Origin: Actinoallomurus soli
Lineage (GTDB): Bacteria; Actinomycetota; Actinomycetes; Streptosporangiales; Streptosporangiaceae
Assembly: GCF_024055715.1 (NCBI RefSeq)
Contig: NZ_JAMXMV010000018.1
Span: 62,001-126,000, forward strand
DNA length: 64,000 bases
Reading direction: 5' to 3'
The position numbers and the translations under genes are program-made. The notes below the pieces were generated by a model. The model saw nothing but the letters and a program-made list of their open reading frames with translations, was not told where the DNA came from and ran no database searches. Below, one piece after another: positions 17,551-48,463 of the stretch. Positions within the stretch are counted from its first letter, which is position 1, and the number at the start of each line of letters is the position of its first letter.

Positions 17551-17564
17551 TAGAACACGTTTCA
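17551..17564. promoter_or_regulatory. KstR-like operator upstream of the PPOX-ferredoxin-ADH operon
   Basis: TAGAACACGTTTCA matches the T-N-N-AAC-NN-GTT-N-N-A pattern of KstR boxes with one arm mismatch. It lies 9 bp before the PPOX start codon and would block transcription. Confidence 0.7.
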
Positions 17565-17708
17565 GTAAGTGCGGGCAAGTGCGCCCGGAGGGCGACGGCC
17601 GCCCTCGGCCGGATCACGCGAGCCGTCGGCCGGGATGACGGCGGGCGGCGTCGGCCGGGAGGCGGGCGCCGCCGGCCGGTGCCGCCGTCCCGAGCGGGTC
17701 GGAAGCGG

Positions 17709-18098
17709 TCAGAACGCGACGCCGCACCGGAGGATGACGTTCGCGTACGGGGTCGCCTCCCCGGTCCGTACGACCAGCTTGACCGCGTGCGCGAGCAGCT
17801 TCAGCTCCTCGTGCGGGACGTACGTGAGGGCGGGCAGCCGGTCGTCGAGCAGGGCGTGGCACTCCGGATTGCCGCCCACGACCTCCTCCGCCGCGACCGC
17901 GCCCTCGACGACCAGCTCCGCCAGGATCCCGTCCAGCACCTCGGCGAAGCCGGGGACGCCGAGTGTGAAGGCCAGGTCCACCACGTCCGCGTCGGCCGGG
18001 ATCGGCATCCCGCTGTCGCAGATCAGCACCTGGTCGGTGTGGCCCAGCCGGGCCAGGGCGCCGGAAAGGGCGCCGTTCAGAATTCCCCCGCGTTTCAC
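17709..18098 (-). CDS. rbsD: D-ribose pyranase
   Basis: A 129-residue RbsD/FucU-type mutarotase that interconverts the pyranose and furanose forms of ribose so that ribokinase can use it. It shows LNGALSGALARLGHTDQVLICDSGMPIP with the conserved active-site His and Asp, and ANVILRCGVAF at the C terminus. The start is a GTG placed directly after the TAG stop of rbsK, with GGAGG inside the end of rbsK, so the two genes are translationally coupled. It is the last gene of the ribose operon. Confidence 0.95.
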   Translation of the reverse strand: MKRGGILNGALSGALARLGHTDQVLICDSGMPIPADADVVDLAFTLGVPGFAEVLDGILAELVVEGAVAAEEVVGGNPECHALLDDRLPALTYVPHEELKLLAHAVKLVVRTGEATPYANVILRCGVAF

Positions 18099-18980
18099 CT
18101 AGTCCTCCAGATCGGCCGGCCTCGGGAAGGAGCTCTGCGCCCCCGCGACCCGTACGGCGGCGGCTCCGACGCGCGCGGCGAACCGCGCGGCCTCCGCAAG
18201 ATCGTCGCCCCGCGCCAGCCGCCAGGACAGGGCACCGGTGAACGCGTCCCCGGCTCCTGTCGTGTCGACCGCCTCGACGCGCGGGCTGGGCACCTCGATG
18301 ACGCCGTCGCCGTCCGCGACGACCGCGCCGTCCGCGCCCTTGGTGATGACGACCGAGCGCGGGCCGCGTGCGAGCAGGCCCGCGGGGTCGCTCGCCCCGA
18401 GGAAGGCGGCCTCGTGCTCGTTGACCACCAGGGGGTCACAGAGCGCGAGGAGCTCGTCCGGAACGGCGGCGGGCGGCGACAGGTTGAACACCACTCGCGC
18501 GCCGGCCCCTTCGGCGGCGCGCGCGGCGGCGAGCACCGCGTCGAGCGGCACCTCCATCTGCAGCGAGACCACCGACGCGGCGGCGAACAGCGGTCCGGCC
18601 GCCGTCACGTCCTCCTCGGTGACGCGGCCGTTCGCGCCGGGGGACACGATGATGCTGTTGTCGCCCTCGGGGCCCACCGTGATCAGCGCGACCCCGCTCG
18701 GGCCCGGCGTGGTGATCAGGTGGGTGATGTCCACGCCGTCGCCGCGCAGGGCGTCCCGCAGGAAGTCGCCCTGCCCGTCGGTGCCGGCGCGGCCGAGGAA
18801 CGCCACCCGGCCGCCCAGCCGGGCGGCGGCGACGGCCTGGTTGGCCCCCTTGCCGCCCGGGTAGGTGGCCAGGTCCGAGCCCAGCACGGTCTCCCCGGCC
18901 GCCGGGCGCCGGTCGACGCGGACCACGAGGTCCGCGTTGACCGAGCCGACGACCAGCACGTCGTAGGTCTTGTCCGGCAT
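18099..18980 (-). CDS. rbsK: Ribokinase
   Basis: A 293-residue PfkB-family kinase that phosphorylates D-ribose to ribose 5-phosphate. It shows the first signature YPGGKGANQAVAAARLG and the second VDTTGAGDAFTGAL with the catalytic Asp in GAGD. Length is normal. Its ATG follows the rbsB stop without a gap (TGAATG), and rbsD follows without a gap. Confidence 0.96.
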   Translation of the reverse strand: MPDKTYDVLVVGSVNADLVVRVDRRPAAGETVLGSDLATYPGGKGANQAVAAARLGGRVAFLGRAGTDGQGDFLRDALRGDGVDITHLITTPGPSGVALITVGPEGDNSIIVSPGANGRVTEEDVTAAGPLFAAASVVSLQMEVPLDAVLAAARAAEGAGARVVFNLSPPAAVPDELLALCDPLVVNEHEAAFLGASDPAGLLARGPRSVVITKGADGAVVADGDGVIEVPSPRVEAVDTTGAGDAFTGALSWRLARGDDLAEAARFAARVGAAAVRVAGAQSSFPRPADLED

Positions 18981-19931
18981 TCAGGATCCGTTCGTGAACT
19001 GAGCCACGTTGTCCTTCGTGGCCACCTTGACGGGGACCGCCACGGTAGCGTCGATCTTGTCGCCCTTCGCGGCCTTCACGGCGGCCTGCACGGCCATCTG
19101 GCCGAGGAGCACCGGCTGCTGGGCGACGTCGGCGGTGAGCGTGCCGGCCTGGATGGCCTTGAGCCCGTCCGGGGTGCCGTCGAAGCCGATGACCTTGACC
19201 TGCTTGCCGGCCTTCGCGCCCAGCGCCTTGATCGCGCCCAGCGCCATCTCGTCGTTGGCCGCGAACACCCCGGTGATGTCGGAGTGCGCCTGCACGATGT
19301 TGGTCATGACGTCCAGGCCCTTGGTCCGGTCGAAGTCGGCGGGCTGCTGGGCGACGACCTGGATGCCGGGGAACGCCTTGATGCCCTCCTCGAAGCCCTT
19401 CTGCCGGTCGTTGGCGGCCGACGTGCCCGCGGTGCCCTGGAGAACGGCGACCTTGCCCTTGCCGCCGAGCGCCTTGCCGAGCTCCTGGGCGGCCAGCTTG
19501 CCGCCGGCGACGTTGTCGGAGGCGACGGTCTGGGTGACGGTCGCGCCGTCGACGCCGCGGTCGGCGGCGACCACGGGAATTTTGGCGCGGTCGGCGGCCT
19601 TGGCGGCCGGCGCGGCGGCCGCGGAGTCGACCGGGTTCAGGATGATCGCCTTCATGCTCTGGCTGACGAAGTTCTGAACCTGGTTGACCTGCTGGGAGGC
19701 GTCGTTCTGGGCGTCCGTCGTGGTGATCTTGACGCCCTCCTTCTTCGCCTCCGCCTCGGCGCCCTGGCGCAGCTGCACGAAGTACGGGTTGTTCAGCGTC
19801 GAGACGGACAGGCCGATCTTGATGTCGCCCCCGCCGCCGGAGGACGAACCGCCGCCGTTGTTGCAGGCCGTGAGGCCGAGGGCGAGGACCGCACCGGCGG
19901 CCGCGACCGCGGCCGGCTTGATGAACTGCAT
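18981..19931 (-). CDS. rbsB: Ribose ABC transporter substrate-binding lipoprotein
   Basis: A 316-residue periplasmic-binding-type protein. The signal MQFIKPAAVAAAGAVLALGLTAC ends in a lipobox, LTAC, so Cys23 should carry lipid and anchor the protein outside. A Gly/Ser linker follows. The sugar-binding fold of family 4 is clear, with GLSVSTLNNPYFVQLRQGAEAEA and later FAANDEMALGAIKAL and IGFDGTPDGLKAI. It delivers ribose or a related sugar to the RbsA/RbsC transporter. Confidence 0.95.
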   Translation of the reverse strand: MQFIKPAAVAAAGAVLALGLTACNNGGGSSSGGGGDIKIGLSVSTLNNPYFVQLRQGAEAEAKKEGVKITTTDAQNDASQQVNQVQNFVSQSMKAIILNPVDSAAAAPAAKAADRAKIPVVAADRGVDGATVTQTVASDNVAGGKLAAQELGKALGGKGKVAVLQGTAGTSAANDRQKGFEEGIKAFPGIQVVAQQPADFDRTKGLDVMTNIVQAHSDITGVFAANDEMALGAIKALGAKAGKQVKVIGFDGTPDGLKAIQAGTLTADVAQQPVLLGQMAVQAAVKAAKGDKIDATVAVPVKVATKDNVAQFTNGS

Positions 19932-19958
19932 GGTGGTGAGACCTTTCGATGTGTTTCT

Positions 19959-20918: not shown

Positions 20919-22407
<1,489 letters not shown>

Positions 22408-22411
<4 letters not shown>

Positions 22412-24216: not shown

Positions 24217-24220
24217 CCGG

Positions 24221-26479
24221 TCACGGCTCCGCGCGCCGTACGAACACCGCGAACGCCGCGGTGACCAGCGTGATCGCGCCGATGACGACGAGCTGGGTGT
24301 GCATCCGGGCCACCAGGAGCGCCCGCGGGTCCCGGAAGGGGGCCAGGTCGGTGGGTAGGGCCAGGGCGTAGAAGACGGACGTCCCGACGGCGCCCCCGAG
24401 GAGCTGCCCGCCCTGGTGCAGCCCGGCGGCGGCGCCCCCGAGGCGTACGGGCGCGTGCCCGAGCACGGCGGCGGCCGCGGTGGGGATCACGAGCCCGAGG
24501 CCGAGCCCGGCGAACGGAAGCCACGGCACCACGGACGCGTAGGAGAAGTCGCGCCCGAGCAGGGACAGGCCGAACGCCGCGGCCATGGTCAGCAGCAGCC
24601 CGATCACGAGCGGCGGCCGAGGGCCCACCCGGCCGCCGACGGCGGCCGCGATCGCCGCGCCGACGACGTACGCCAGCGTCATCGGCAGCGTGGCGATCGC
24701 CGCCTTCAGCGGCGCCATGCGGCCGACCGTCTGCAGGTAGACCGCCAGGAGCATGTACAGGCCGTTCAGCCCCGCGAAGCCGACCGCCGACAGGCCGATC
24801 GCCGCCGGCAGCGAGGGCGAGGCCAGCAGGATCGGAGGGCGACCGCGCCGGATCTGCGACTCCACGATCCAGAAGATCCCGACCAGCAGCGCGGCCCCGG
24901 CCAGCAGGACGCCCGTCACGACACCGGCCGACTCCTGGACGCGGACCACCGCGAAGGTCAGGACGAACAGCGCCGCCGACAGGAAGACCATCCCGGGCAG
25001 GCTGAACGACGCGGACGCGTCACCGCGCGACTCGCGGCCGGCGACCAGGACGATGACGGCGGCGAGGACGCCCAGCACCGCCGGGAGGACGAACACCCAA
25101 CGCCACGCGACCTGTTCGATCACCGGCCATGCGACGAACACCCCGGCCAGCGCCGTACTGCCGGCCACGGCGCCCCAGACGCCGGTGACGACGATCAGCC
25201 TTCTCCCGGAGAAGGCCTCGCGGACGAGCCCCAGACCGGCCGGCAGAGCCAGGCCCGCCGCCACCCCTGCCGCACCCCGCAGCACGATCAGCACGCCGAG
25301 GGCGGGTGAGAGGAGCGCGAGGAGCGTGGCCACCGCGCACGCGGCCGTACCGATGACGAACAGCCTCTTGCGCCCGAACCGGTCGGCGAGCCATCCGCCG
25401 GCGACGACGCTGAGCGCGAGCCCGAGCAGATAGGCGTTCGCCACCCAGGTCAGGCCGGCGAGTGTCGCACCCAGGTCCCGCTGGATGATGGGGAGGGCGA
25501 GATTCACCCCGCTCGCGGTGAGCGAGTTCGCCAGCACGCCGAGCACCACACCGAGTGCCGCGAGCGGCGGAACGCCGCGCGCCGGTGTCCGCATCGGTGC
25601 GGCCTGGAACGGCGGCGCGCCGTGGCGGGTCGCGGCCGCCGCTCCCTGGGTCAGCAGCGTTCGCACGTCGCCCTGCGGAGCACCGGGTGGGGCGCCCAGC
25701 AGGTGCAGCAGCGCCTGGACGGCGGTCGGCCGGCGCCGCGGGTCCTTCTCCAGGCAGGCGGCGACGAGGCCGCCCAGCCAGGGCGGCAGCCCGCGCAGGT
25801 CCGGGACGCCGTGCAGGATGGCGTTCATCACCGACGGCACCGAGTCGCCCGCGAAGGCCCGGCGCCCCGTCGCCGCGAACACCATCGTCAGACCCCACGC
25901 GAACATGTCCGCGGCCGACCCGATCGGACCGGCCGTGAGCTGCTCCGGCGCCATGTAGGCCGGCGTGCCGACGACCTGGCTCGTCATCGTGACGTCGGAG
26001 TCCAGCACCCGCGCGATGCCGAAGTCGATGACCCGCGGCCCGCCGGGACCCATGATCACGTTGGCGGGCTTGAAGTCCCGGTGCACGATCCCGGCCTGGT
26101 GGACGGCGGTCAGGGCGGTGGCGGTGCCGATGGCCAGCCGCAACAGCTCGGGCTCCGGCAACGGGCACGTCACGTCCTGCAGCGCCGGGCCGGGCACGAA
26201 CTCGCTGACGATGTACGGCTGGTCGCCGGCGACGTTCGCGTCGATCACCGGCGCCGTGCAGAACCCGGGAACCCGCTCGGCCGCCGACAGCTCACGGACG
26301 AACCGTGAACGCGCCCGGGCGTCCCCGCTCAGCTGCGCGCGCAGCAGCTTGATCGCCACCTGCCGCCCGGCCGCGTCCGCCCCGAGATAGACCACCCCCT
26401 GGCCGCCCTCACCGAGACGCGCGGTCACCGTGTACGCGCCCAGCCGCGTCGGATCGCTCGGGAGCAGTGCGGCCGTCAT
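24221..26479 (-). CDS. Ser/Thr protein kinase fused to a 14-helix MFS transporter
   Basis: A 752-residue two-domain membrane protein. Residues 12-265 are a complete Hanks-type kinase: Gly-rich loop LGEGGQGVVYLG, Lys44 in VAIK, HRDFKPAN at 133-140 with catalytic Asp135, DFG at 152-154 and GTPAYMAPEQ at 171-180. A 45-residue linker leads to an MFS exporter of the EmrB/QacA type (about 305-750), with GGWLADRFGRKRL at 361-373 and about 14 helices. All kinase residues are present, so it should be active. The kinase probably gates or senses the transporter, in cis or by phosphorylating partners; this is inference. The ATG at 26479 starts the kinase; upstream codons lack sense. No extracellular PASTA-type sensor exists, so the transporter part may be the sensor. 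Confidence 0.92.
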   Translation of the reverse strand: MTAALLPSDPTRLGAYTVTARLGEGGQGVVYLGADAAGRQVAIKLLRAQLSGDARARSRFVRELSAAERVPGFCTAPVIDANVAGDQPYIVSEFVPGPALQDVTCPLPEPELLRLAIGTATALTAVHQAGIVHRDFKPANVIMGPGGPRVIDFGIARVLDSDVTMTSQVVGTPAYMAPEQLTAGPIGSAADMFAWGLTMVFAATGRRAFAGDSVPSVMNAILHGVPDLRGLPPWLGGLVAACLEKDPRRRPTAVQALLHLLGAPPGAPQGDVRTLLTQGAAAATRHGAPPFQAAPMRTPARGVPPLAALGVVLGVLANSLTASGVNLALPIIQRDLGATLAGLTWVANAYLLGLALSVVAGGWLADRFGRKRLFVIGTAACAVATLLALLSPALGVLIVLRGAAGVAAGLALPAGLGLVREAFSGRRLIVVTGVWGAVAGSTALAGVFVAWPVIEQVAWRWVFVLPAVLGVLAAVIVLVAGRESRGDASASFSLPGMVFLSAALFVLTFAVVRVQESAGVVTGVLLAGAALLVGIFWIVESQIRRGRPPILLASPSLPAAIGLSAVGFAGLNGLYMLLAVYLQTVGRMAPLKAAIATLPMTLAYVVGAAIAAAVGGRVGPRPPLVIGLLLTMAAAFGLSLLGRDFSYASVVPWLPFAGLGLGLVIPTAAAAVLGHAPVRLGGAAAGLHQGGQLLGGAVGTSVFYALALPTDLAPFRDPRALLVARMHTQLVVIGAITLVTAAFAVFVRRAEP

Positions 26480-26730
26480 CCGTCCTCCGAATGGGGGTCG
26501 ATCGGAGCTGGGCCCGCCATCGATCGACGGGAACCCGATCATTATCGACGCTGCGGCGCTCCGGGACCGGCCATCCGCGCGAAGCGGCGCGACCGGTGGG
26601 ACCGCCGGTGGGCCCTGCGACCCAATGCGAAATAGGGCCCCCGGCCCTTTCTGCGGCGACGACAGGACCCAATACTGATCACCCGGACCGGTCCATTACC
26701 CCACCTTTGAACCCCCCGAAAGGGGCCCTC

Positions 26731-33997: not shown

Positions 33998-34008
33998 CCA
34001 CGACTCCC

Positions 34009-34878: not shown

Positions 34879-34953
34879 CCGGCTCCTTCCGTGACGGCAT
34901 GCCGACCGCCCGGGGTGGCCGCCCGAGCGCCGGCATGCCGCGTCCACTATAAG

Positions 34954-34984
34954 TGAAACGTGTTCTAATGTGAAACCTGTTCTA
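34954..34984. promoter_or_regulatory. Double KstR-like operator upstream of SDR-P450 operon
   Basis: TGAAACGTGTTCTA (34954-34967) and TGAAACCTGTTCTA (34971-34984) stand 17 bp apart on the same face region and differ at one base. The second overlaps the stop codon of the upstream P450. They lie 76-106 bp before the SDR start. Confidence 0.8.
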
Positions 34985-36228: not shown

Positions 36229-36242
36229 TGAAACACGTTCTA
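36229..36242. promoter_or_regulatory. KstR-like operator upstream of second P450
   Basis: TGAAACACGTTCTA, a close match to the boxes at 34954 and 34971, lies 27 bp before the P450 start codon. Confidence 0.8.
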
Positions 36243-36302: not shown

Positions 36303-36710
36303 TCAACGATTCGTGACCGGAGTGTCACCCTGGGGAGAGGCTGCGGCGGCCGGCCGGGCCTGGTAAGCGCGGTTCTCGTCGATCAGTCGATCGAGCGCTG
36401 CGATCGCGGCGAGGACCGTGTCGAGCGTGCCTGAGAGACGCTCCCGTTCCCGGCGCATCACCGCCATCGAGTCCTGGGCGGCCCGCATCGTCGGTCTGGT
36501 CGTCATGCACGGCAGCATCTCGACGATCGTGCGGCTGGACAGGCCGGCCGCGAAGAACGACTGGATGAGTCCGACCCGCTGGACCTGGTCTTCGGCGTAA
36601 TGGCGCTGACCGCTCGGGGACCGGGTGCTCACGACGAGCCCCTGCTCCTCGTAGTAGCGCAGAGAACGCCGGCTGACCCCGGTCCGCTCCGACAGCTCGC
36701 CGATCCTCAT
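36303..36710 (-). CDS. MerR-family regulator
   Basis: A 135-residue MerR-type regulator. The N-terminal winged helix reads MRIGELSERTGVSRRSLRYYEEQGLVVSTRSPSGQRHYAEDQVQRV and a dimerising coiled coil follows to about 115. No metal-binding Cys cluster is present (one Cys in MLPCMTTR), so an organic effector is likely. The ATG at 36710 has GGAG five bases upstream; a GTG six bases earlier is less likely. It is divergent from the EthD-like gene, whose promoter it probably controls. Confidence 0.88.
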   Translation of the reverse strand: MRIGELSERTGVSRRSLRYYEEQGLVVSTRSPSGQRHYAEDQVQRVGLIQSFFAAGLSSRTIVEMLPCMTTRPTMRAAQDSMAVMRRERERLSGTLDTVLAAIAALDRLIDENRAYQARPAAAASPQGDTPVTNR

Positions 36711-36733
36711 CGACACTCCATTCGTGCTGACGA

Positions 36734-36771
36734 TTGCGCTTGCCCCTCACATCAATGTCACCGTTTACCGT
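36734..36771 (+). promoter_or_regulatory. MerR-type promoter with 20-bp spacer
   Basis: TTGCCC (36740-36745) and TACCGT (36766-36771) are 20 bp apart, longer than the usual 17, as at MerR-activated promoters. ACATCAATGT (36749-36758), an inverted repeat, lies inside the spacer. It points at the EthD-like gene and away from merR. Confidence 0.55.
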
Positions 36772-36834
36772 AATCCGCGCCGACAGGGGGTCCGCGTCAG
36801 GCGGGCGGACCTCGCGTCAGTGAAAGGAGACACT

Positions 36835-37170
36835 GTGATCAAGTTCGCTTATCTGATCAATCGGGTCGACGGCATGACCTTCGAGGAGTTCGTCGAGTAC
36901 CACCGCGACCGTCACGCGCCGCTCTTCACCTCGATCCCCGAGGCGAAGCAGTACGTCAGGAAGTACACGGTCTCGCATCCGGTGCCGGCCGAGAATTACC
37001 CGGCTCCGGCGTACGACGGCCTCACCGAGATCTGGTTCGACGACTGGGCGGACCACGACGCGTTCTTCGCCTCCGAGAACTACCGCGTGCGGGTCCATCC
37101 CGACGAGGCGAACTTCATCGACCAGAACTCGATCGGCGTGATGGTCACGGAGGAGACGACCGTCATCTGA
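36835..37170 (+). CDS. EthD-domain protein
   Basis: A 111-residue protein with a dimeric alpha/beta-barrel fold of the EthD kind: IKFAYLINRVDGMTFEEFVEYHRDRHAPLFTSIPEAKQYVRKYT. The H-x-x-x-HAPL element is the family mark. The GTG at 36835 follows AAAGGAGA. EthD proteins are linked to P450-based ether degradation and related oxidations; here it lies beside two P450 genes but under what seems to be a MerR promoter. The exact reaction is unknown. Confidence 0.85.
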   Translation: MIKFAYLINRVDGMTFEEFVEYHRDRHAPLFTSIPEAKQYVRKYTVSHPVPAENYPAPAYDGLTEIWFDDWADHDAFFASENYRVRVHPDEANFIDQNSIGVMVTEETTVI

Positions 37171-37204
37171 CGCGAGCCGTCGTCAACACTTCTGAACCAA
37201 GTGG

Positions 37205-37582
37205 TCAGAACGTCACCGACCTCGGCCGTACCCGCCGGGGAGCCGGGTCGACCGGCACCCCGGCCGTGTCCAGGGCGCCGAGGAGCTCGTGCGCACAACG
37301 CGTCCAGAAGTAGTAGTCGCCGTCGGCGCAGCCCAGGCCGACACCGGGGCCGCCGAGGAATACGGGAGCGATGGGGAAGGCCTCGTGAATCGCCCGGAAC
37401 GGCACCGATCGTGGTCGGACCATGAGCGTGAACGGGCCTCGCGCGTGGAAGCTCACCCGGTGGGGATGCAGTTCGAGACGGGCGAGGGGCCGGTCGAGGT
37501 TGACGCGTCCGGCTCCGCCTCTCATGGGCATGCTGAATCCGCCGATGTACGAGCGGACCTCGGAATCCGATAAGGGTGCCAT
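37205..37582 (-). CDS. Unrecognised 125-residue protein downstream of thiolase
   Basis: I do not recognise this protein. It is soluble, with beta-strand-like stretches (RVSFHARGPFTLMVRPRSVPF) and a Gly-rich centre (FLGGPGVGLGCADGDYYFWTRC). The ATG at 37582 has AAGGA upstream and follows the thiolase stop after 22 bp, so the two are likely one operon under the KstR-like box at 38836. Its end, RVRPRSVTF, lies next to the EthD-like gene end. A helper role for acyl-CoA breakdown is only a guess from position. Confidence 0.6.
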   Translation of the reverse strand: MAPLSDSEVRSYIGGFSMPMRGGAGRVNLDRPLARLELHPHRVSFHARGPFTLMVRPRSVPFRAIHEAFPIAPVFLGGPGVGLGCADGDYYFWTRCAHELLGALDTAGVPVDPAPRRVRPRSVTF

Positions 37583-37604: not shown

Positions 37605-38834
<1,230 letters not shown>

Positions 38835-38835: not shown

Positions 38836-38849
38836 TATAACCCGTTCTA
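38836..38849. promoter_or_regulatory. KstR-like operator upstream of thiolase
   Basis: TATAACCCGTTCTA fits the pattern with all six core bases. It lies 35 bp before the thiolase start. The rest of the 198-bp gap down to 38999 shows nothing else clear. Confidence 0.75.
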
Positions 38850-38999
38850 ATATGACGGTTGCAAGCCTCACGGCATCGGCGGATGCCGGGAAGAACTTGT
38901 TCTGGTGCAGTTCGATTCGGTGAGCGTGCCCGCAGCGGCCGGTCCGTCGCGGACCCCCGGCCGAGCGCGCCCGAACGGGGGTGTGTCGAAGTTTCGCCG

Positions 39000-39239
39000 T
39001 TAGGCGATCAGAGTGTCGAAGTCGCCGGCCTTGGCGCCCTGGATGAGGGCTTTGATCTCCGCCTTCGTGTAGACCAGGGCGGGCCCGGCCGGATGCCGGG
39101 AGTTCCTGACGGCCACGCTGCCGTCGGGGAGCTGGGCCAGCTCGACGCAATTACCTTGTGAGTTGCTCCGGTGGCTCTTCTGCCATCGGACGTCGGCGAG
39201 ATCGGTGGCGGGGATGCCGTTGTACGCCCGGTACTGCAT
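39000..39239 (-). CDS. DUF397 protein of a whiJ-like locus
   Basis: A 79-residue DUF397 protein. The motif WQKSHRSNSQGNCVELAQLPDGSVAVRNSRHPAGPALVYTKAEI is complete. Small DUF397 proteins occur beside Scr1-type HTH regulators and are thought to antagonise or partner them in development and antibiotic control. Its ATG follows the regulator stop without a gap (TGAATG). Confidence 0.93.
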   Translation of the reverse strand: MQYRAYNGIPATDLADVRWQKSHRSNSQGNCVELAQLPDGSVAVRNSRHPAGPALVYTKAEIKALIQGAKAGDFDTLIA

Positions 39240-40124
39240 TCATGTCTCCTGGAGAATCCTGCTGAGGATCTCGGCGGTGTTGTCCGGAGGTGCGCTGACC
39301 ACGCAGAGGCGTTCCATCGCCTCCATGTAGGCGTCCACGTCGTCGCGCCTGTCCAGATACAGCGCACTGGTCAGTTGCTCGACGTAGACCACGTCCGGCA
39401 GGTCCGATTCGGGAAACCGCAGGATGGTGAACGCCCCGGCCTCGGCGGTATGACCGCCGACCCGGAACGGCAACACCTGGAGAATGACGTTCGGCAGCTT
39501 CGTCGCCTCGATGAGGCGCTCGATCTGACCGCGCATCACTTCTCGTCCCCCGATCGGGCGTCGCAACGCCGCCTCGTCCACGACCGCCCACAGGCGAGGA
39601 CCGTCCCCTCGCGTGAGCAGCTTCTGACGAGTTATCCGCAGGCTGACCCTCTGCTCGATCTCTTCGGGAGGCGCGGCCGAGTTGCCCAGGGAGATGACGG
39701 CGCGGGCGTAGCCCTCGGTCTGCAGCAGACCGGGGATGAACTGGACCTCGTAGGTGCGGATCAGCGCGGCCGCCTCTTCCAGCCCCACGTAGGTCTCGAA
39801 CCAGCCCGGCAGAACGTCGCCGTACCTGTGCCACCAGCCGGGAGTGTTGGCGTCCTGAGCGAGCTCGAGAAGGCTTTCGCGCTCTCGCTCGTCCATGACG
39901 CCGTAGAGGGTGAGCAGGTCGGCCACGTCGCGTTCCTTGAATCCCACCCGGCCCAACTCCAGGCGGCTCATCTTGGAACCGGAGGCGCGGATCGCGTACC
40001 CGGCCTCCTCGCGCGTGATGCCCTGCCGCTCACGCAACCGACGCAGCTGAGCGCCGAGGAGCCGGCGCAGAACGGTCGGTCCCCCAGCGGGCTGCGCTGT
40101 GTCCACCCCTACCTCCATGAGCAT
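39240..40124 (-). CDS. Scr1-type HTH regulator (WhiJ-like, DUF5753)
   Basis: A 294-residue regulator. Residues about 20-80 are an XRE-type helix-turn-helix (LRRLRERQGITREEAGYAIRASGSKMSRLELGRVGFKERDV). The rest is the DUF5753 region, with ALIRTYEVQFIPGLLQTEGYARAVI, and ends TAEILSRILQET. It resembles the S. coelicolor WhiJ group. It forms a unit with the DUF397 gene and is divergent from the ATP-binding protein gene, across operator-like palindromes at 40181-40211. The start may be the ATG six bases later. Confidence 0.92.
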   Translation of the reverse strand: MLMEVGVDTAQPAGGPTVLRRLLGAQLRRLRERQGITREEAGYAIRASGSKMSRLELGRVGFKERDVADLLTLYGVMDERERESLLELAQDANTPGWWHRYGDVLPGWFETYVGLEEAAALIRTYEVQFIPGLLQTEGYARAVISLGNSAAPPEEIEQRVSLRITRQKLLTRGDGPRLWAVVDEAALRRPIGGREVMRGQIERLIEATKLPNVILQVLPFRVGGHTAEAGAFTILRFPESDLPDVVYVEQLTSALYLDRRDDVDAYMEAMERLCVVSAPPDNTAEILSRILQET

Positions 40125-40180
40125 CGGTCAGCGCACAGTGTGCCACTCCCTTCCGTCGCTGTCAGAGTTGCACGATCGTC

Positions 40181-40211
40181 TGCACGTGCATCGGGCCTTG
40201 CATATGCAAGG
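40181..40211. promoter_or_regulatory. Palindromes between divergent whiJ-like genes
   Basis: TGCACGTGCA (40181-40190) and CCTTGCATATGCAAGG (40196-40211) are both perfect palindromes, and a further TTGCAC lies at 40169. They share TGCA half sites and lie in the 144-bp gap between the divergent regulator and ATP-binding genes. They are the best candidates for the Scr1-type regulator's binding sites. Confidence 0.6.
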
Positions 40212-40268
40212 CATGTCGAGCAGGATAGCGCGCGAGGCACGCCGATCACTGCTTCCCAGGGGATCGCG

Positions 40269-40799
40269 ATGACAGCACACGGAGCGCGCTGGATGACCGG
40301 TGAGAGCGTCGACGAAGCGCACGAGTGGCTGTTGTCGGCGATCGCGCGTGGCGGACGGTGGCCGGGCCACCTCGTACCGCCCGCCAGGATGGGCTCGGAC
40401 GCGATGACGCGGGACCTCGCCGCGCTGCCCGAATCGGTGCGGGAGGCGCGCGAGTTCACGCGTGACGGGCTGAGGACCTGGGGCCTGGCGGCCATGTACG
40501 ACGACGTCGGCCTCGTCGTCTCCGAACTCGTGACGAACGCCATCCGGTACGCCGTCGGGGCGACGGCCGGCCCCGGCGACACCCCGGTCAGGCTCGGGCT
40601 CCTGCGGACCGTCGGCCGGCTGACCTGCGCGGTCGCCGACCCCAGCGACGAGGTGCCCCAGCAGGGGGAGGCCGACTTCGTCTCCCAGAGCGGGCGCGGT
40701 CTGTACCTCGTCGCCGCGTTCAGCGACGCGTGGAACTGGACCCCGCTGTACGGTCACGGCAAGGTCGTGTGGGCGACCTTCACCACCCGCGGGAGCTGA
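40269..40799 (+). CDS. RsbW-like ATP-binding protein (anti-sigma type)
   Basis: A 176-residue GHKL ATPase-fold protein. It shows VGLVVSELVTNAIRYAV (N box), VADPSDEVPQ and SGRGLYLVAAFSDAWNW. Such proteins bind sigma factors or anti-sigma antagonists and are typical of whiJ-like loci. The ATG at 40269 was chosen because AGGGGAT stands before it and longer frames overlap the operators. A 32-bp tandem repeat begins within its stop codon. Confidence 0.88.
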   Translation: MTAHGARWMTGESVDEAHEWLLSAIARGGRWPGHLVPPARMGSDAMTRDLAALPESVREAREFTRDGLRTWGLAAMYDDVGLVVSELVTNAIRYAVGATAGPGDTPVRLGLLRTVGRLTCAVADPSDEVPQQGEADFVSQSGRGLYLVAAFSDAWNWTPLYGHGKVVWATFTTRGS

Positions 40800-40887
40800 C
40801 GAGCGCGGCCGTGAGCACCGCGGCCGGCCGACGAGCGCGGCGATGAGCACCGCGGCCGGCCGACGAGCGCGGCGATGAGCACCGCGG
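40798..40887. repeat. 32-bp tandem repeat, 2.8 copies
   Basis: Three head-to-tail copies (40798-40829, 40830-40861, 40862-40887 partial) each start GACGAGCGCGG and contain GAGCACCGCGG. Copies differ at two bases. They begin within the stop codon of the ATP-binding gene and end just before the convergent DUF202 gene. Strong self-pairing is possible. Confidence 0.85.
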
Positions 40888-40894
40888 CGGGGGT

Positions 40895-41164
40895 TCACAG
40901 CATCATGACGCCCGCGACGGCCACCCACACGCAGGCACCGGCCAGCAGCAGTCCCTCCACCGGCGACATCGGCGGCGGTTCGGCGTGCCCGCGCAACCAT
41001 CGTCGCCTGCGGTACGCGACGACCGTCACCGCCAGCGGGCCGAGCAGCGCGACGGCCCCGGCCGGGAACGCGATCTTGACGGCGAGCAGGCCGGCCGCCC
41101 AGCAGGACAGCAGGGCCCGCAGCCAGGTGAGCTCCGTCCGCTGAGCCTGGAGGCCGGAGCTCAC
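40895..41164 (-). CDS. DUF202 membrane protein
   Basis: An 89-residue protein with three hydrophobic segments. It shows the DUF202 opening LQAQRTELTWLRALLSCWAAGLL. Its start overlaps the stop of the next DUF202 gene (ATGA), so the two are co-translated and may form a heteromer. Function unknown; related YidH proteins are inner-membrane proteins. Confidence 0.85.
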   Translation of the reverse strand: MSSGLQAQRTELTWLRALLSCWAAGLLAVKIAFPAGAVALLGPLAVTVVAYRRRRWLRGHAEPPPMSPVEGLLLAGACVWVAVAGVMML

Positions 41165-42596: not shown

Positions 42597-42615
42597 CGAC
42601 CGGGTACCCGGACTC

Positions 42616-45600
42616 ATGCCGCTGGGACCACTTCTCCGTGCCGCGTCCGGCCTGCTCCAGATGACGGCGACGGTCACCGGCACGGCCGCGCGGGCCACGG
42701 CGACGGTCACGGGCACGGCCGCGCGGACCTCGGTGACGGTCACGGGCACGGCCGCGCGGGCGTCGATGACGGTCCCGGGCGTCGTACGGCGCGCCTCGTG
42801 CGAGGCGGTGCGCCTTCCGGGCCTGCTGGTGCGTCTGCCCGCGGCCGCCGCGCGGGCGTCCGAGGCGGTCGTACAGGACCCGGCGGCCGCGCTGCGCGCC
42901 GCCATCGAGACGGTGGAGCAACGGCGGGTGCACCGGGCCGGCCGGCGGACCAGCATCCGGGTCCGGGGTCTGCATCACCCGGGCCGCGAGGGCATGGCGA
43001 GCGACCTCGTCACCGCGATGAGCGAGGTCGCGGGGGTGCGCCGTGCCGAGGTGAACGGCGTTCTCGGCGTCGTGATGGTGGCCCACGACGGTGACGTCCC
43101 CGTTGACGCGCTCACCGGGGTGGTCGACGCGGTCGAGGACCGGTACGACGCCGCCGGTGAGCCGTACGCCGCGCATCCCGACCCCGGCCATCGGCAGGCG
43201 GTCCTGCGGGAGACGGCGCTCACGGCCGCGTACGCGGCGGGGGCGACCGCCGCCATCACGGGCAGGTTCGTGCTGCGCGCCGTGCCGATCCCGCCGGCCG
43301 TGGGCACCCTCATCGCGATGGCCGACTCGACGCCGCAGGTCAGGGAGCGGCTGACGCGGTTGATCGGGCGCGCGGCGACCGACGTCCTCATCGGCGGTGG
43401 CCTCGCGGGCCTGCAGGCGCTGGCCCAGCAGCCGACCGGCCTGCTGATCGGCGCCGTGCACCGGACGACCCGCGTCGGGGAGGCGCGCGCGTACCGATCC
43501 GTGTGGCACCGGCGCACCGGGCACCTGATCCGTGAGGAGGGCTCGTTCGAGGCCCCGGCTCTGGACGTGCCCGAGCGGCCCGTGCCGCTGCCGTACGGGC
43601 CGGTGGAGCGCGCCGCCTGGACGGTGCCCACGGCGATCACCGGTGCGGTGGGCGCGTACGTTCTCACCCGTGACGCCGCGCGGGCACAGGGGGTGCTGGC
43701 CGCCGGTGTGCCGAGGGCGGCGCGCATGGGCCGCGAGGCGTTCGCCACCCAGCTCGGCCTGGTACTCGCGGGCCGGGACATCATCGTCATCGACCTGGAG
43801 AGCCTGCGCCGGTTCGACCGGGTCGACCACGTCATCGTCGACGCGTCGGTGCTGCGCACCGGCGACATGGTGATCGAGGACGTCGTCCCCCTCCCGTTGG
43901 TCACCGCCGAAGAGGCGCACGAACGCGCCCACGCGCTGGTGGACCTGGAACGCCCGGAGGCCCGGCGGGAGGACGGACCCTGGGTGGTGACGCCGCTGCG
44001 CCCGGCCGCCCCGGCGTCCACGTCGACCCCGGTCTCCGCCCCCGTCTCCACGCCGGACTCCGCCCCCGTCTCCACGCCGGACTCCGCCCCCGTCTCCACG
44101 CCGGACGCCGCCCCCGTCTCCACGCCGGACTCCGCCTCCGTCTCCATCTCGGACGCTGTTCTCACGTCCGCCTCCACGGGCGCCCCGGCCACCGAGGCCG
44201 AACCGGCTCCGGTGTCCGAGGCCGACCTCTCGGCCGAGGCGCGGGCGCGCGCTGCCGAACTGCGGGAGCTCGGCGCGATCGTGCTCCTGCTGACCCGCGA
44301 CGGTGAGCCGGCCGCCCTGGTCTCCGTGGTCGCCGAGCTCGACCCGCTGGCCGAGGCCCTGATCGACGCCGCCAGGGGGGTGGGGTCGGTGGCCGTGGCC
44401 GGCGCCTCCGTGCTGGCGCAGCGGCTGTCCGTTCCCGACGCGGTGCCCGGCGGCGGCCGGCTCCTCGACTCGGTGCGCCAGGCCCAGGAGGCCGGGCACG
44501 TCGTCGCGCTCGTCGCGGCGCGCGGTGGCGCGCCGCTCGCGGCGGCGGACGTGGGGATCGGGCTGCTGGCACCCGGCCGCCGCCCGCCCTGGGGCGCACC
44601 CCTGCTGTGCGGGCCGGGTCTGGCGGAGGCGTGCCTGCTGCTGGGGGCCATGCCGTCGGCCCGGCGGACCAGCACGCGCGCCGCCCGGATCGCCAACGTG
44701 GGGTCGGTGGCGGGGGCGCTGCTGGCCGCGGCCGGGTCGTCCGCACGCGCGCCCCGGCGGGCGCGGCTGGCGGTCGACTTCGCCACCGTGTCGGCGTTCG
44801 TCGTGGGCTCCCTGTCGGGCCGGGCGCTGACCCGGCGGCCCGCTCCCGTGCCGCAGGACCGTACGGCCTGGCATGCGTGGCCGGCCAAGGCCGTGCTCAC
44901 CCGGCTGGGGTCGTCCATGTCCGGCATCGACGAGGACGAGGCCGCCCGGCGCCGCTCGGACGTGGGGGAGGTGATCCGCCCGCCCGGGCTCGCCCAGGTG
45001 ACCGTGGACGAGCTGGACAACCCGCTGACCCCCGCGCTGGCGGCCGGGGCCGGAGTGTCCGCGGTGGTCGGATCGATCATGGACGCGGCCCTCATCGGCG
45101 CGGTCCTCGCAGTCAACGCGATGATGTCCGGCCTGCAGCGGGTCCGCGCCGACCGCGCGCTGCGGCAGCTCGTCGACCTGAGCGCGGTGCGGGTACGGCT
45201 CCGGCGTCCGGACGCGGGCGGCGAAGAGCCGCGGGCCACCGCCGACCAGCTCGTTCCCGGCGACGTCGTCGTCCTCACCGCGGGGGACGCGGTCCCGGCG
45301 GACCTGCGCCTGCTGTCGGCCAAGGACCTCGAGGTCGACGAGTCGAGCCTTACCGGCGAGTCGCAGCTGGTCACGAAGGACCCCCGGCCCAGCATGGCCC
45401 GGTCTGTCGCCGACCGGCACTCGATGCTGTACCAGGGCACGGTGATCGCCGCGGGCGACGCGGTCGGCGTCGTGGTCGCGACGGGCGCCCAGACCGAGGT
45501 GGGGCGCACGACGCGGCAGGCCGGCGCCGAGGACCGTCCCGGCGGCGTCGAGACGCGCCTGCGCGCGCTGACGCGGGTGACCCTGCCGGTCGCCCTGGGG

Positions 45601-47406
45601 GCCGGCGCGGTGCTCTTCGGGACGGATCTCCTGCGCGGGGCCACGCTCGCCCGTGCCCTCGGACCGGCGGTCAGCCTGGCCGTCGCCGCCGTGCCCGAGG
45701 GGCTGCCGTTCGTCGCCACGGCGGCCGAGCTGGCCACGGCCCGGCGGATGTCCCGTCGTGGCGCGCTCGTCCGCAACCCGCGCACGATCGAGGCCCTCGG
45801 CCGCATCGACGTCCTCTGCTTCGACAAGACCGGCACGCTGACGGAGGGACGGCTGCGGCTGGGCCAGGTGTCCGACGGCATCGCGTCCCGCCCCGTCGAG
45901 GAGCGGCTGCCGCCGGCGTTCCGGGAGATCCTCGCGGCCGCCGTACGCGCGACGCCGGACCCCGGCGGCGGCCGGCTGCCCCACCCGACCGACCGGGCGA
46001 TCATGAGGGCCGCCCGCAAGCTCGGCATGGACGCCGCGGAGGGGCTCGGGGCGTGGCAGCGGGTCGACGAGCTGCCGTTCGAACCCGCGCGCGGCTACCA
46101 CGCCGTGCTCGGCCGTACGAACCGCCGGCAGCGGCTGAGCGTGAAGGGCGCTCCGGAGATCATCCTGGAGGCGTGCGACACCTGGCAGCGCGACGACGGG
46201 CAGGTTCCGTTCGATCGGGAGGCGCGGGAGAAGGTCGACCAGGAGATCGACCGCCTGGCCCGCCTCGGCTACCGGGTGCTGGCGGTCGCGGAGCGCGCGG
46301 CGTCGGGGCGCCGGGACCTCACCGCGGAGCGCATCGACCGGCTCGGCTTCCTCGGCCTGCTCTGCATCGCCGATCCGGTCCGGCCCACCGCCGCGGAGGC
46401 GGTCGGCCGGCTGCGGAAGGCGGGCGTCGACGTGATCATGATCACCGGTGACCACCCGACCACCGCGGAGGCCATCGCCGCCGAGCTGCGGCTGCTGAAC
46501 GGCCGGATCATGACCGGGCCGGACCTCGACGCCCTGCGCGACGAGGAGCTGGCCGACGCGCTGTCCAGGGTGGCGGTGTTCGCCCGGGTCAGCCCCGCGC
46601 AGAAGGCCCGCGTCGTCCGGGCCCTGCGCAGCGCCGGGCGGGTGGTCGCCGTCACCGGCGACGGCGCCAACGACGCCCCGGCCATCCGGCTGGCCGACGT
46701 CGGCATCGCGCTCGGGGAGCGGGCCACTCCCGCCGCCCGCGAGACCGCCGACGTGGTCGTCACCGACGACCGGATCGAGACGATCACCGACGCGATCGCC
46801 GACTGCCGGGCGATGTGGCGCTCGACGCGGGACGCCCTGGCCGTGCTGCTCGGCGGCAACCTCGGCGAGATCGCCTTCACCGTGGGAACGGGGCTGGTGA
46901 GCGGGCGCAGCCCCTTGAACGTGCGTCAGCTGCTCCTGGTCAACCTGCTCACCGACATGCTCCCGGCGATCGCCCTGGCGGCCCGCCCGCCGTCCGGCGT
47001 GACGAGCGAGGAGCTCCTTGCCGAGGGCCCGGACCGCTCGCTCGGCGGCGCGCTGACCCGTGACGTCACGGTCCGCGCGGGCACGACGGCGGGGGCGGCG
47101 CTGGCGGCCTGGATGATGGCGCGGGCCAGCGGCACCCGCGGCCAGGCCGACACCACCGGCCTCGTCGCGCTCGTCACCACGCAGCTCGCGCAGACGATCG
47201 TCGCGGGCGGCCGCGACCCGCTGGTGCTCGGCTGCGGCCTGGCGTCCCTCGGCGCGCTGGCGTTCATCGTGCAGGTGCCGGGCCTCAGCCACTTCTTCGG
47301 CTGCCGGCCGTTGCTCCCGCACTGCTGGGCCATCGCCCTCGGATCGGGGGTGGGTCTGGCTCTGGCGGCCGTACTGCTCACCCGGATCCGGCGACCGGCC
47401 GTCTGA
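42616..47406 (+). CDS. Giant P-type cation-transporting ATPase (CtpH/CtpI-like)
   Basis: A 1596-residue membrane pump. Core motifs are all present: TGES at about 914, the phosphorylation site DKTGTLTE with Asp1070, KGAPE and TGDGANDAPAI near 1350. It ends in several hydrophobic helices. The N-terminal half is unusual: 12-residue repeats (TVTGTAAR) at 16-60, a heavy-metal-associated-like fold around 110-175, and an 8-residue repeat (APVSTPDS) near 475-515 before a truncated second half-ATPase-like region. The length and layout match mycobacterial CtpH and CtpI. The transported ion cannot be told from the sequence. Confidence 0.9.
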   Translation: MPLGPLLRAASGLLQMTATVTGTAARATATVTGTAARTSVTVTGTAARASMTVPGVVRRASCEAVRLPGLLVRLPAAAARASEAVVQDPAAALRAAIETVEQRRVHRAGRRTSIRVRGLHHPGREGMASDLVTAMSEVAGVRRAEVNGVLGVVMVAHDGDVPVDALTGVVDAVEDRYDAAGEPYAAHPDPGHRQAVLRETALTAAYAAGATAAITGRFVLRAVPIPPAVGTLIAMADSTPQVRERLTRLIGRAATDVLIGGGLAGLQALAQQPTGLLIGAVHRTTRVGEARAYRSVWHRRTGHLIREEGSFEAPALDVPERPVPLPYGPVERAAWTVPTAITGAVGAYVLTRDAARAQGVLAAGVPRAARMGREAFATQLGLVLAGRDIIVIDLESLRRFDRVDHVIVDASVLRTGDMVIEDVVPLPLVTAEEAHERAHALVDLERPEARREDGPWVVTPLRPAAPASTSTPVSAPVSTPDSAPVSTPDSAPVSTPDAAPVSTPDSASVSISDAVLTSASTGAPATEAEPAPVSEADLSAEARARAAELRELGAIVLLLTRDGEPAALVSVVAELDPLAEALIDAARGVGSVAVAGASVLAQRLSVPDAVPGGGRLLDSVRQAQEAGHVVALVAARGGAPLAAADVGIGLLAPGRRPPWGAPLLCGPGLAEACLLLGAMPSARRTSTRAARIANVGSVAGALLAAAGSSARAPRRARLAVDFATVSAFVVGSLSGRALTRRPAPVPQDRTAWHAWPAKAVLTRLGSSMSGIDEDEAARRRSDVGEVIRPPGLAQVTVDELDNPLTPALAAGAGVSAVVGSIMDAALIGAVLAVNAMMSGLQRVRADRALRQLVDLSAVRVRLRRPDAGGEEPRATADQLVPGDVVVLTAGDAVPADLRLLSAKDLEVDESSLTGESQLVTKDPRPSMARSVADRHSMLYQGTVIAAGDAVGVVVATGAQTEVGRTTRQAGAEDRPGGVETRLRALTRVTLPVALGAGAVLFGTDLLRGATLARALGPAVSLAVAAVPEGLPFVATAAELATARRMSRRGALVRNPRTIEALGRIDVLCFDKTGTLTEGRLRLGQVSDGIASRPVEERLPPAFREILAAAVRATPDPGGGRLPHPTDRAIMRAARKLGMDAAEGLGAWQRVDELPFEPARGYHAVLGRTNRRQRLSVKGAPEIILEACDTWQRDDGQVPFDREAREKVDQEIDRLARLGYRVLAVAERAASGRRDLTAERIDRLGFLGLLCIADPVRPTAAEAVGRLRKAGVDVIMITGDHPTTAEAIAAELRLLNGRIMTGPDLDALRDEELADALSRVAVFARVSPAQKARVVRALRSAGRVVAVTGDGANDAPAIRLADVGIALGERATPAARETADVVVTDDRIETITDAIADCRAMWRSTRDALAVLLGGNLGEIAFTVGTGLVSGRSPLNVRQLLLVNLLTDMLPAIALAARPPSGVTSEELLAEGPDRSLGGALTRDVTVRAGTTAGAALAAWMMARASGTRGQADTTGLVALVTTQLAQTIVAGGRDPLVLGCGLASLGALAFIVQVPGLSHFFGCRPLLPHCWAIALGSGVGLALAAVLLTRIRRPAV
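42661..42798. repeat. 36-bp coding repeats in the ATPase N terminus
   Basis: Four imperfect 36-bp units encode successive 12-residue blocks of the form ATVTGTAARAT. They start near the N terminus of the P-type ATPase and end before its metal-binding-like part. Confidence 0.75.
44032..44155. repeat. 24-bp coding repeats inside the P-type ATPase
   Basis: About five head-to-tail units near GTCTCCACGCCGGACTCC encode the 8-residue block APVSTPDS. The block forms a Pro/Ser/Thr linker between two parts of the ATPase and is likely to vary in copy number among strains. Confidence 0.85.
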
Positions 47407-47515
47407 CTTGGGAAAATGTTCACCTACCCGTCACCCGCCACCGTAACCATCGATTCGGACAAGAAGGCATAATTTAGGCGGAAGGTATCCCCACTCAACC
47501 CCTAGGTGCCCCACC

Positions 47516-47644
47516 ATGCCTGACCTCGTGTCGACCGTCCTCGCCAAGGCACTCGTGATGATCGTCGAGGCCCTTGTCACCCGGCTGGCCCTCTACCTGG
47601 TCCGCACCGGGATGTCCGGGCAGCTCCGGGCGGCGGCTGCCTGA
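47516..47644 (+). CDS. Possible 42-residue amphipathic peptide
   Basis: A short frame reads MPDLVSTVLAKALVMIVEAL followed by VTRLALYLVRTGMSG. The middle is one long hydrophobic or amphipathic helix, as in many small actinomycete membrane peptides. The upstream 100 bp are rich in A+T (a TAATTT at 47470) and could hold its own promoter. A GGAAGGTAT lies too far up to be a normal ribosome site, so the evidence is only moderate. Confidence 0.45.
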   Translation: MPDLVSTVLAKALVMIVEALVTRLALYLVRTGMSGQLRAAAA

Positions 47645-47671
47645 GCCTGCTCCCGGCCCGCGTCCTCGGCC

Positions 47672-48268
47672 TCAGAAGTCGGCGAGCAGGCGGGCCGCCG
47701 CGATCTCCAGTCGCGCCTGAATCTCCTCGTTCGTGGTGTGGCCGCGGAGCATCTCGATCATCTCCATCACCCACACGCTGCTGAGCGACCGCAGGAGGAC
47801 CCGGCTCTCGCCGCCCTCCCCGGCGTCGGCGTCGGTCCCCGGCACCCGGGCCAGCATCCCGGTCATGCGGTTGCCGAAGTCGGTCTTGACGTCCGACAGC
47901 AGCAGTGACCGGATCAGCGCGTCGGCCAGCTCCGGCTCGCGCATCAACCCGCGCGTCGCGCGCATCAGCACCTCGACGGCGCGCCCGGCCGCGGTCGCCG
48001 AGCGCGGCGGGCGGCGCTCCAGGCTGCCCTCGAGGGTGTCCATCTCCTCGCTGACGACCGCGACCACCAGGTCCATCTTGGACGGGAAGTACCGGTAGAG
48101 CGTGCCGAGGGCCACGCCGGCGCGCTCGGCGACGGTCCTCATCTGCATCGCCTCCACCCCGCCGCGGGAGGCGAGGGCCGCGGCGGCCTGGACGATGCGC
48201 CGGCGGCGCTGGTGCTGGCTGCGGGAGCGGACCCCCGGATGGCTGGCGGCGGTGGACTCTGCCGTCAC
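47672..48268 (-). CDS. kstR: KstR-like TetR-family repressor
   Basis: A 198-residue TetR-family regulator. The helix-turn-helix reads RRRIVQAAAALASRGGVEAMQMRTVAERAGVALGTLYRYFPSKMDLVVAVV, which follows mycobacterial KstR almost position by position (QMR-VA-RA-VA-GTLYRYFPSK). KstR represses sterol catabolism genes and is released by a 3-oxo-cholestenoyl-CoA. I chose GTG at 48268, where GAGGAG stands ahead; longer frames have no signal and run through an operator. It is divergent from the CoA-ligase operon, and both sides carry KstR-like boxes (48336 and 48450). Confidence 0.88.
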   Translation of the reverse strand: MTAESTAASHPGVRSRSQHQRRRRIVQAAAALASRGGVEAMQMRTVAERAGVALGTLYRYFPSKMDLVVAVVSEEMDTLEGSLERRPPRSATAAGRAVEVLMRATRGLMREPELADALIRSLLLSDVKTDFGNRMTGMLARVPGTDADAGEGGESRVLLRSLSSVWVMEMIEMLRGHTTNEEIQARLEIAAARLLADF

Positions 48269-48335
48269 GACGACTCCTCGGGCTGTGAGCGCGGTGCCCC
48301 GCCCGCGCGTGTCATGGATCAGCGTACCGCCCGGT

Positions 48336-48349
48336 GAGAACACGTTATG
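48336..48349. promoter_or_regulatory. KstR-like operator upstream of kstR
   Basis: GAGAACACGTTATG keeps the core AACACGTT but is weaker in the outer bases. It lies 68 bp before the kstR start and fits autoregulation. Confidence 0.6.
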
Positions 48350-48449
48350 CATTGCCGCGGGCGAGGGGGCTGGAACTCGTTCGGTCGAGGTAAGCAGAGC
48401 CCGACGCGCCCGGAGGGCGGGTGGGGGATCACCGATGGTGGACACATAA

Positions 48450-48463
48450 TAGAATCTGTTCTA
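48450..48463. promoter_or_regulatory. KstR-like operator upstream of the side-chain operon
   Basis: TAGAATCTGTTCTA fits the palindrome with one core change (AAT for AAC). It lies 32 bp before the CoA-ligase start. Confidence 0.75.

Follow-up and report, generated by a model that had tools for sequence, protein, structure and literature searches.

What does a 64,000-nucleotide stretch of the Actinoallomurus soli genome (contig NZ_JAMXMV010000018.1, positions 62,001 to 126,000; hereafter the window, always meaning this whole stretch) gain from a KstR-like repressor, and which genes does that repressor control? A sequence-only reading had proposed a dispersed KstR-like regulon marked by seven 14-bp palindromes, and had assigned a shared sterol-degradation role to the genes behind them. 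The regulon itself proved strongly supported by footprinting, by promoter position, by the co-occurrence of sites and repressor, and by targets outside the window. On the strength of these sequence comparisons, we are fairly confident that a KstR-orthologous repressor controls a sterol side-chain regulon through the palindromes, the steroid rings probably being left. The source genome (9.42 Mb, 60 contigs, 98.06% complete) is labelled G000, genomes sampled from its family G plus a number, and related loci L plus a number.

All seven palindromes are present in the window. They behave like operators and are listed as predicted sites, together with a degenerate second box.

17551 to 17564, minus strand: predicted operator before the PPOX-ferredoxin-alcohol dehydrogenase operon, exact match to TRRAACNNGTTCTA.
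34954 to 34967, minus strand: predicted operator 1 before the SDR-P450 pair, exact match to TRRAACNNGTTCTA.
34971 to 34984, minus strand: predicted operator 2 before the SDR-P450 pair, exact match to TRRAACNNGTTCTA, overlapping the cypB 3' end by 3 bases.
36229 to 36242, minus strand: predicted operator before the first CYP125-type gene (cypB), exact match to TRRAACNNGTTCTA.
38836 to 38849, minus strand: predicted operator before fadA5, one mismatch to TRRAACNNGTTCTA, 23.2 bits.
38891 to 38904, minus strand: further, degenerate box preceding fadA5, 12.8 bits, at a distance of 55 bp from the operator above.
48336 to 48349, minus strand: predicted kstR operator, a weak box reading CATAACGTGTTCTC, located 67 bp upstream of the kstR start used.
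48450 to 48463, plus strand: predicted operator before the casI operon, TAGAATCTGTTCTA, one mismatch to TRRAACNNGTTCTA.

The kstR-side site, which reads GAGAACACGTTATG with CATAACGTGTTCTC as its reverse, is weaker, with three mismatches to the string of the sequence-only reading and a score of 16.2 bits, against 23.1-23.8 bits for the other six. None of the seven lies inside a gene body, the site at 34971 reaching only the final bases of the neighbouring P450 gene. Among nine related loci compared, seven hold fadA5, and only L189 and L191 hold the whole adjoining stretch; a pair of fadA5 boxes (at least 15 bits, 53-55 bp spacing) was observed in five of these seven (L066, L068, L069, L079 and L191), and L067 and L189 show a single box at 15 bits.

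With up to two mismatches allowed, the window yields 16 rows, compared with a mean of 1.45 in shuffled sequences (largest value 7; 0 of 100 shuffles reached 16). A symmetric matrix built from the seven sites finds only those seven at 13 bits or more in the 64 kb, which, the matrix having been trained on them, shows only that there are no others. In the whole genome the string of the sequence-only reading is specific when no mismatch is allowed (8 rows vs 1 for the backwards control) and is not specific with one mismatch (33 rows vs 51). The published form TNNAACNNGTTNNA occurs in 29 places (5 in the window) vs 10 for the backwards control, and TNNAAYNNRTTCTA gives 18 rows (2 in the control) at 16 positions, of which the window contains 6.

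Footprinting was performed with 80 loci of named relatives, comprising 1,553,567 bases. On the kstR strand the operon-side box reads T..AAC..RTT..A, mostly as TAGAACAGATTCTA, and it is kept in 76 of the 80; the box on the kstR side, mostly GATAACGTGTTCTC/T, is kept in 71. The seven-site matrix gives 275 matches in these loci: 233 are located before casI, kstR, chsE1, fadA5, CYP or PPOX genes, 27 are intergenic elsewhere, and 15 fall within genes, so that matches do not occur as often inside genes as before them. Six column-permuted control matrices gave 4, 3, 10, 15, 48 and 25 matches. The position of the boxes was also analyzed with a promoter test, in which a box of at least 16 bits was sought from 320 bp before to 10 bp after each gene start, and in which the kstR count took in only loci whose match begins near the start (n = 22). 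A box precedes the first genes casI (42/42), kstR (22/22), fadA5 (58/60) and PPOX (3/3), the CYP genes in 11/15 and 3/3 cases, and chsE1 in 26/54; for SDR the count is 0/1. No box was found before the operon-internal genes chsE2 (0/75), chsH (0/65) and ltp2 (0/67), and random windows contained one in 110 of 3200 cases.

The repressor and its sites were then compared across 150 genomes of the same GTDB family, where a window-type KstR was defined by E <=1e-50 and a canonical type by E <=1e-25. The window type is carried by 117 genomes, the canonical type by 15, and neither by 18. The mean number of exact TRRAACNNGTTCTA rows is 5.5 in the first class (control 0.76), 13.8 in the second (control 1.9) and 0.22 in the third (control 0.33); operator and repressor come and go together across the family. 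The genera with both repressor and boxes include Actinoallomurus, Actinomadura, Nonomuraea, Streptosporangium, Planotetraspora and others.

The repressor gene is located as follows.

47672 to 48268, minus strand: kstR-like TetR-family repressor, 198 residues from the start used.

The window protein is 96% identical to its Actinoallomurus spadix homologue and 92% identical to that of A. purpureus, and its top PDB matches are M. tuberculosis KstR (E 8.5e-27, 97 bits). In HMMER alignments its DNA-binding part shares 33 of 53 residues (62%) with M. tuberculosis KstR, the stretch GTLYRYFPSK being unchanged. The canonical KstR of G032, from the same family, scores 322.1 bits against a cut-off of 280 for the NF033703 equivalog model and 246 bits to M. 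tuberculosis KstR, to which it is 71% identical in the DNA-binding part and 56% in the effector part. The claim of a KstR-like repressor gene was upheld for the DNA-binding half, whereas the effector half of the window protein appears to have diverged. The predicted fold is of moderate quality (pLDDT 75.7), with KstR and the Rhodococcus protein 3bjb as first structural matches; this model suggests a diverged effector domain and gives no indication of a replaced one. In a tree of 22 rows, M. tuberculosis KstR falls within the canonical group (100/99); branches are long, and the fork at which the window's group joins is left open. In the canonical lineages G032, G093, G116 and G053, kstR faces acyl-CoA dehydrogenase genes with boxes between them, and chsE-chsH-ltp2 come next in G093 and G116, the stretches of G032 and G053 ending before that point. 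Because both KstR types face acyl-CoA dehydrogenase genes and are followed by chsE-chsH-ltp2 wherever the stretch is long enough, they are taken as orthologues with a diverged effector domain.

Additionally, candidate sites were located elsewhere in the genome. Outside the window TNNAAYNNRTTCTA occurs in 10 places, and at four of them a gene of lipid or steroid type has its 5' end; three scored sites, the first three below, reach at least 22 bits.

C20:4669: before an F420_Rv3520c enzyme, above cut-off.
C17:29759: before an SDR gene, PRK07814 above cut-off.
C16:77743: before an open reading frame (ORF) of 137 residues that has zinc-ribbon and OB domains of the ChsH2 type; a lipid-transfer protein gene (PRK06059 above cut-off) comes next.
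C16:45146: before a nitronate-monooxygenase-type gene, 17.7 bits.
C22:436629: weak site, 13.1 bits, 39 bp before an acyl-CoA synthetase gene.

The last of these may or may not belong to the regulon. The mycobacterial Rv1894c is presumably nitronate-monooxygenase-like, as is the gene at C16:45146, and we take Rv3521 to be a DUF35 protein, as at C16:77743. A single MCE-family gene (L028, 6686-7918) is next on the strand after the DUF35/lipid-transfer genes of C16:77743.

The genes behind the predicted operators of the window are the following.

15678 to 16778, minus strand: zinc alcohol dehydrogenase, TIGR03989 302.9 bits (cut-off 440).
16890 to 17078, minus strand: 63-residue 4Fe-4S ferredoxin, PF13370 and PF13459 above cut-off, 97-100% identical in L189 and L190.
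17089 to 17541, minus strand: PPOX-class oxidoreductase.
32795 to 34012, minus strand: cypA, second CYP125-type P450, CYP125MRCA E 4.3e-159.
34009 to 34881, minus strand: SDR, PRK07792-like, 382.3 bits (cut-off 414).
34982 to 36202, minus strand: cypB, CYP125-type P450, CYP125MRCA 8vxi E 1.9e-158, CYP125/steroid C26-monooxygenase chains E ~2e-111.
37605 to 38801, minus strand: fadA5, steroid 3-ketoacyl-CoA thiolase, NF005889 636.6 bits (cut-off 515).
48496 to 50133, plus strand: casI-like steroid-22-oyl-CoA synthetase homologue, NF052587 560.7 bits (cut-off 900).
50143 to 51324, plus strand: acyl-CoA dehydrogenase (chsE1), Pfam acyl-CoA dehydrogenase domains, conserved synteny.
51321 to 52496, plus strand: acyl-CoA dehydrogenase (chsE2), Pfam acyl-CoA dehydrogenase domains, homologue in 75 of the 80 loci.
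52530 to 53831, plus strand: fused ChsH2(MaoC)-DUF35-ChsH1 type hydratase, Pfam, with the 4w78/4wnb ChsH1-ChsH2 chains and 6ok1_B ChsH2(DUF35) as matches.
53828 to 54997, plus strand: ltp2 steroid side-chain aldolase homologue, 6ok1_A E 2e-185, PRK07855 above cut-off.

The names chsE1 and chsE2 are our assumption, given by operon position. The box before PPOX is kept in L189 and L190; in L191, where PPOX has no match, the ferredoxin gene has a box about 220 bp upstream. The ChsH2, DUF35 and ChsH1 parts form one chain of 433 residues, whereas the solved hydratases have two chains; a homologue covering at least half of its length is found in 65 of the 80 loci.

The side-chain targets typical of a KstR regulon (cyp125, fadA5 and chsE-chsH-ltp2) are all present in the window, and the predicted function of the CYP125-type P450s, FadA5, Ltp2 and ChsH is sterol side-chain removal. 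For binding, repression, ligand, substrate and end product we infer the following scheme. Palindromes of 14 bp, either TRRAACNNGTTCTA or close variants of it, would be bound by the TetR-family KstR orthologue in the promoters of kstR itself, casI-chsE1-chsE2-chsH-ltp2, fadA5, the two CYP125-type genes with the SDR, the PPOX-ferredoxin-alcohol dehydrogenase operon, and at least three loci elsewhere in the genome. Repression of these targets would last until the protein is released by a metabolite derived from a sterol, probably an acyl-CoA; since the effector domain is only about 20% identical, the inducer may differ from that of mycobacterial KstR, a ligand of the 3-oxo-cholestenoyl-CoA type. 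The enzymes made at that point would attack C26 by oxidation and take off the side chain through beta-oxidation and a retro-aldol cleavage. The products would be a 17-keto steroid together with short acyl-CoAs, and the ring system would probably not be degraded by the known route, in which KshA, KstD and the Hsa enzymes act.

The shared sterol-degradation role is supported for side-chain removal and probably does not extend to the rings. In G000, HsaC reaches at best 57.9 bits of 450 and HsaD 147 of 400, KshA_C has no match, and there is no KstD candidate among the four FAD_binding_2 matches at 1e-10. These four were rejected as the L-aspartate oxidase NadB, two SDH/FRD flavoproteins and one weak partial stretch of 202 residues. 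Because KshA, KstD, HsaC and HsaD were not found, the regulon is read as covering side-chain removal rather than degradation of the whole sterol. IpdE2, a C/D-ring protein of the KstR2 regulon, reaches at best 239.8 of 450 bits in G000, and none of the 150 genomes attains the cut-off. With strong matches set at 1e-80 for KshA_C and 1e-60 for HsaC, strong KshA is absent from 94 of the 117 window-type genomes and present in 14 of the 15 with canonical KstR; within the window type, the mean number of boxes is 11.0 with strong KshA vs 4.1 without it. In four ring stretches of such strong-KshA genomes (L175, L177, L181 and L182), the 16-bit KstR boxes number 0, 0, 0 and 1. Separately, Lcin1-like palindromes TCCCGGTSACCGGGA (0-1 mismatch) are present in the ring clusters of the relatives L175, L181 and L182 and absent from L177, and TetR genes are located near ring clusters, with a TetR_C_20 domain in L175 and L182.

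Several observations weigh against this reading. The window repressor misses the NF033703 equivalog cut-off (135.8 bits of 280), only 27 of 132 effector residues (20.5%, HMMER alignment) are identical to M. tuberculosis KstR, and the CasI homologue is below its NF052587 cut-off. A whole-genome profile search with the motif gave no match at E 10, because the motif is too short. Some genomic matches are badly placed: C55:214643 (21.8 bits), C55:130615 (16.8 bits) and C22:333566 (15.9 bits) fall inside genes or, for the last, an ORF; C5:57791 (18.0 bits) sits between gene 3' ends; and C44:271742 (12.7 bits) precedes the tryptophan synthase gene trpB. Finally, strong KshA and HsaC-like matches occur in 23 of the 117 window-type genomes, including G135 from the same genus, and in a genome that is 98% complete single genes can be missing.

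One alternative is compatible with the regulon and disputes its substrate, which would be another branched-side-chain isoprenoid or steroid such as a bile acid, a hopanoid derivative or a plant triterpenoid. The diverged effector domain speaks for it, as does the nearest solved Ltp2 homologue, 6ok1, which we take to be the enzyme of Thermomonospora curvata. That species grows on cholate and not on cholesterol (PMC4810484), and a T. curvata Ltp2 acting on the C3 side chain is named in the abstract of PMC12329534. However, a full-length sterol tail is indicated by the two CYP125-type P450s and by a thiolase that passes the steroid-thiolase cut-off, and a C26 hydroxylase would be needless for a bile acid; we consider this alternative rather unlikely.

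An equally compatible alternative, which disputes the restriction to the side chain, is that whole sterols are degraded by ring enzymes too divergent for the models or lost in assembly gaps. The 60 contigs at 98.06% completeness leave room for this, and the ring-bearing window-type genomes, G135 included, favor it. Against this, none of the four ring families was found in G000; its congeners G091 and G115 have no KshA_C candidate, G052 has only a weak match (5e-30), and none of the three has HsaC at 1e-60, while the same KshA_C and HsaC models do match in 37 and 42 of the 150 genomes. Degradation of whole sterols by this organism is in our view unlikely. That a different TetR regulator binds the boxes, the adjacent KstR-like gene being incidental, is very improbable: TetR genes are numerous (21 matches in G000 searched with KstR), yet box number follows the KstR types and drops to control level in the 18 genomes with neither, the repressor's own promoter carries a box, and GTLYRYFPSK is identical to that of M. 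tuberculosis KstR.

Control of side-chain removal by a KstR orthologue, the reading we prefer, can be set beside known systems. KstR boxes of M. tuberculosis are described for Rv3520c/Rv3521, Rv3545c/Rv3546 and Rv1894c/Rv1895, and gel shifts there were positive (Kendall 2007, PMC1995591); the 14-mer of the window sites at 17551 and 34954 is identical to the one within the shifted Rv3545c/Rv3546 and Rv1894c/Rv1895 probes. The Mycobacterium regulon shares with the window the operator TnnAACnnGTTnnA, from which the casI and kstR own-promoter boxes differ at single positions, and a repressor divergent from an operon (PMC1995591). Differences from Mycobacterium are the ring genes, which were not found in G000, an effector domain with about 20% identity, a kstR opposite casI rather than fadE34, ChsH2 and ChsH1 parts joined in one chain, and a casI operon operator of the AAC..ATT type. 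SCO2319 of S. coelicolor is described there as a possible KstR orthologue (32%, no synteny) (PMC1995591). KstR is also in print for Saccharopolyspora (PMC9782250). Nocardioides simplex resembles the window in having KstR boxes outside the mycobacteria; its bile-acid cluster is presented as lacking them and as containing Lcin1-like palindromes, and it grows on cholesterol and lithocholate, whereas ring genes were not found in the window genome (PMC7593942). Clusters for cholate and the C/D rings are present in T. curvata, a species that grows on cholate, whereas the window genome has CYP125-type sterol-tail enzymes and yielded no ring genes; a survey of more than 8,000 microbes lists T. curvata with a cholate and without a cholesterol pathway (PMC4810484). 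The structure 6ok1, presumably from T. curvata, is the nearest solved relative of both Ltp2 and the ChsH2 DUF35 domain. Unlike the window genome, the canonical lineages of the same family have a KstR above the NCBIfam cut-off (G032) and, in 14 of 15 genomes, strong KshA. A BLAST survey of 52 thermophilic or thermotolerant species (PMC8708139) reports KstD/Ksh homologues in seven, with T. curvata, Thermocatellispora tengchongensis and Microbispora siamensis among them; this agrees with the 23 window-type genomes that bear ring genes.

One proposed member of the regulon, a 125-residue unknown, found no support. The ORF at 37205-37582 is real and lies 22 bp after fadA5, with which it may be cotranscribed; no homologue was found in the nine related loci, seven of which lack the whole stretch beside fadA5, and in L189 and L191 the next box lies only about 190 and 80 bp from fadA5, which leaves too little room for the ORF. 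There is no support for a role of this ORF in sterol metabolism. Together with MerR and EthD genes it forms a small block (36303-37582) between fadA5 and cypB, with no match there in G115 and G135.

Other genes of the window were also noted. The region 24221-26542 encodes an ORF of 773 residues, whose first part is like Ser/Thr kinase families and whose second part is like MFS efflux transporters. At 39000-41000, an ORF of 290 residues with no NCBIfam or Pfam match has a DUF397 protein and a Sco1979-family regulator as neighbours; in six related loci a homologue of the ORF is found together with one of the regulator. The region 42616-47406 encodes a P-type ATPase of 1596 residues, the first ~860 of which have no Pfam match at 1e-4, and a homologue follows kstR in L067, L068, L069, L079 and L183.

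The regulon of the window is real and belongs to a known kind, of which it is a variant whose ring half was not found; a known cholesterol-catabolism switch seems to persist here for tail removal only. It is conceivable, although we propose it tentatively, that a family-wide split took place, in which an ancestral KstR regulon lost its ring half and became fixed as a tail-clipping module, the DNA-reading half of the repressor being frozen and the sensing half rewritten for a new inducer, with 17-keto nuclei released to the soil or cross-fed to ring degraders. A comparison of 31 genomes places the origin of KstR at the Mycobacterium-Rhodococcus ancestor (PMC3388012); canonical KstR in the window's family does not fit this origin, unless it was transferred. 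No report of a KstR regulon in this GTDB family was found in the open-access literature searched. If this reading is true, a KstR regulon would be widespread in soil actinomycetes, with no prior description in that literature, and natural strains would convert phytosterols to 17-keto steroids, for which engineered mycolicibacteria are otherwise the source sought. Moreover, the split would represent a natural experiment on a TetR regulator that changes its sensing domain while keeping its operator.

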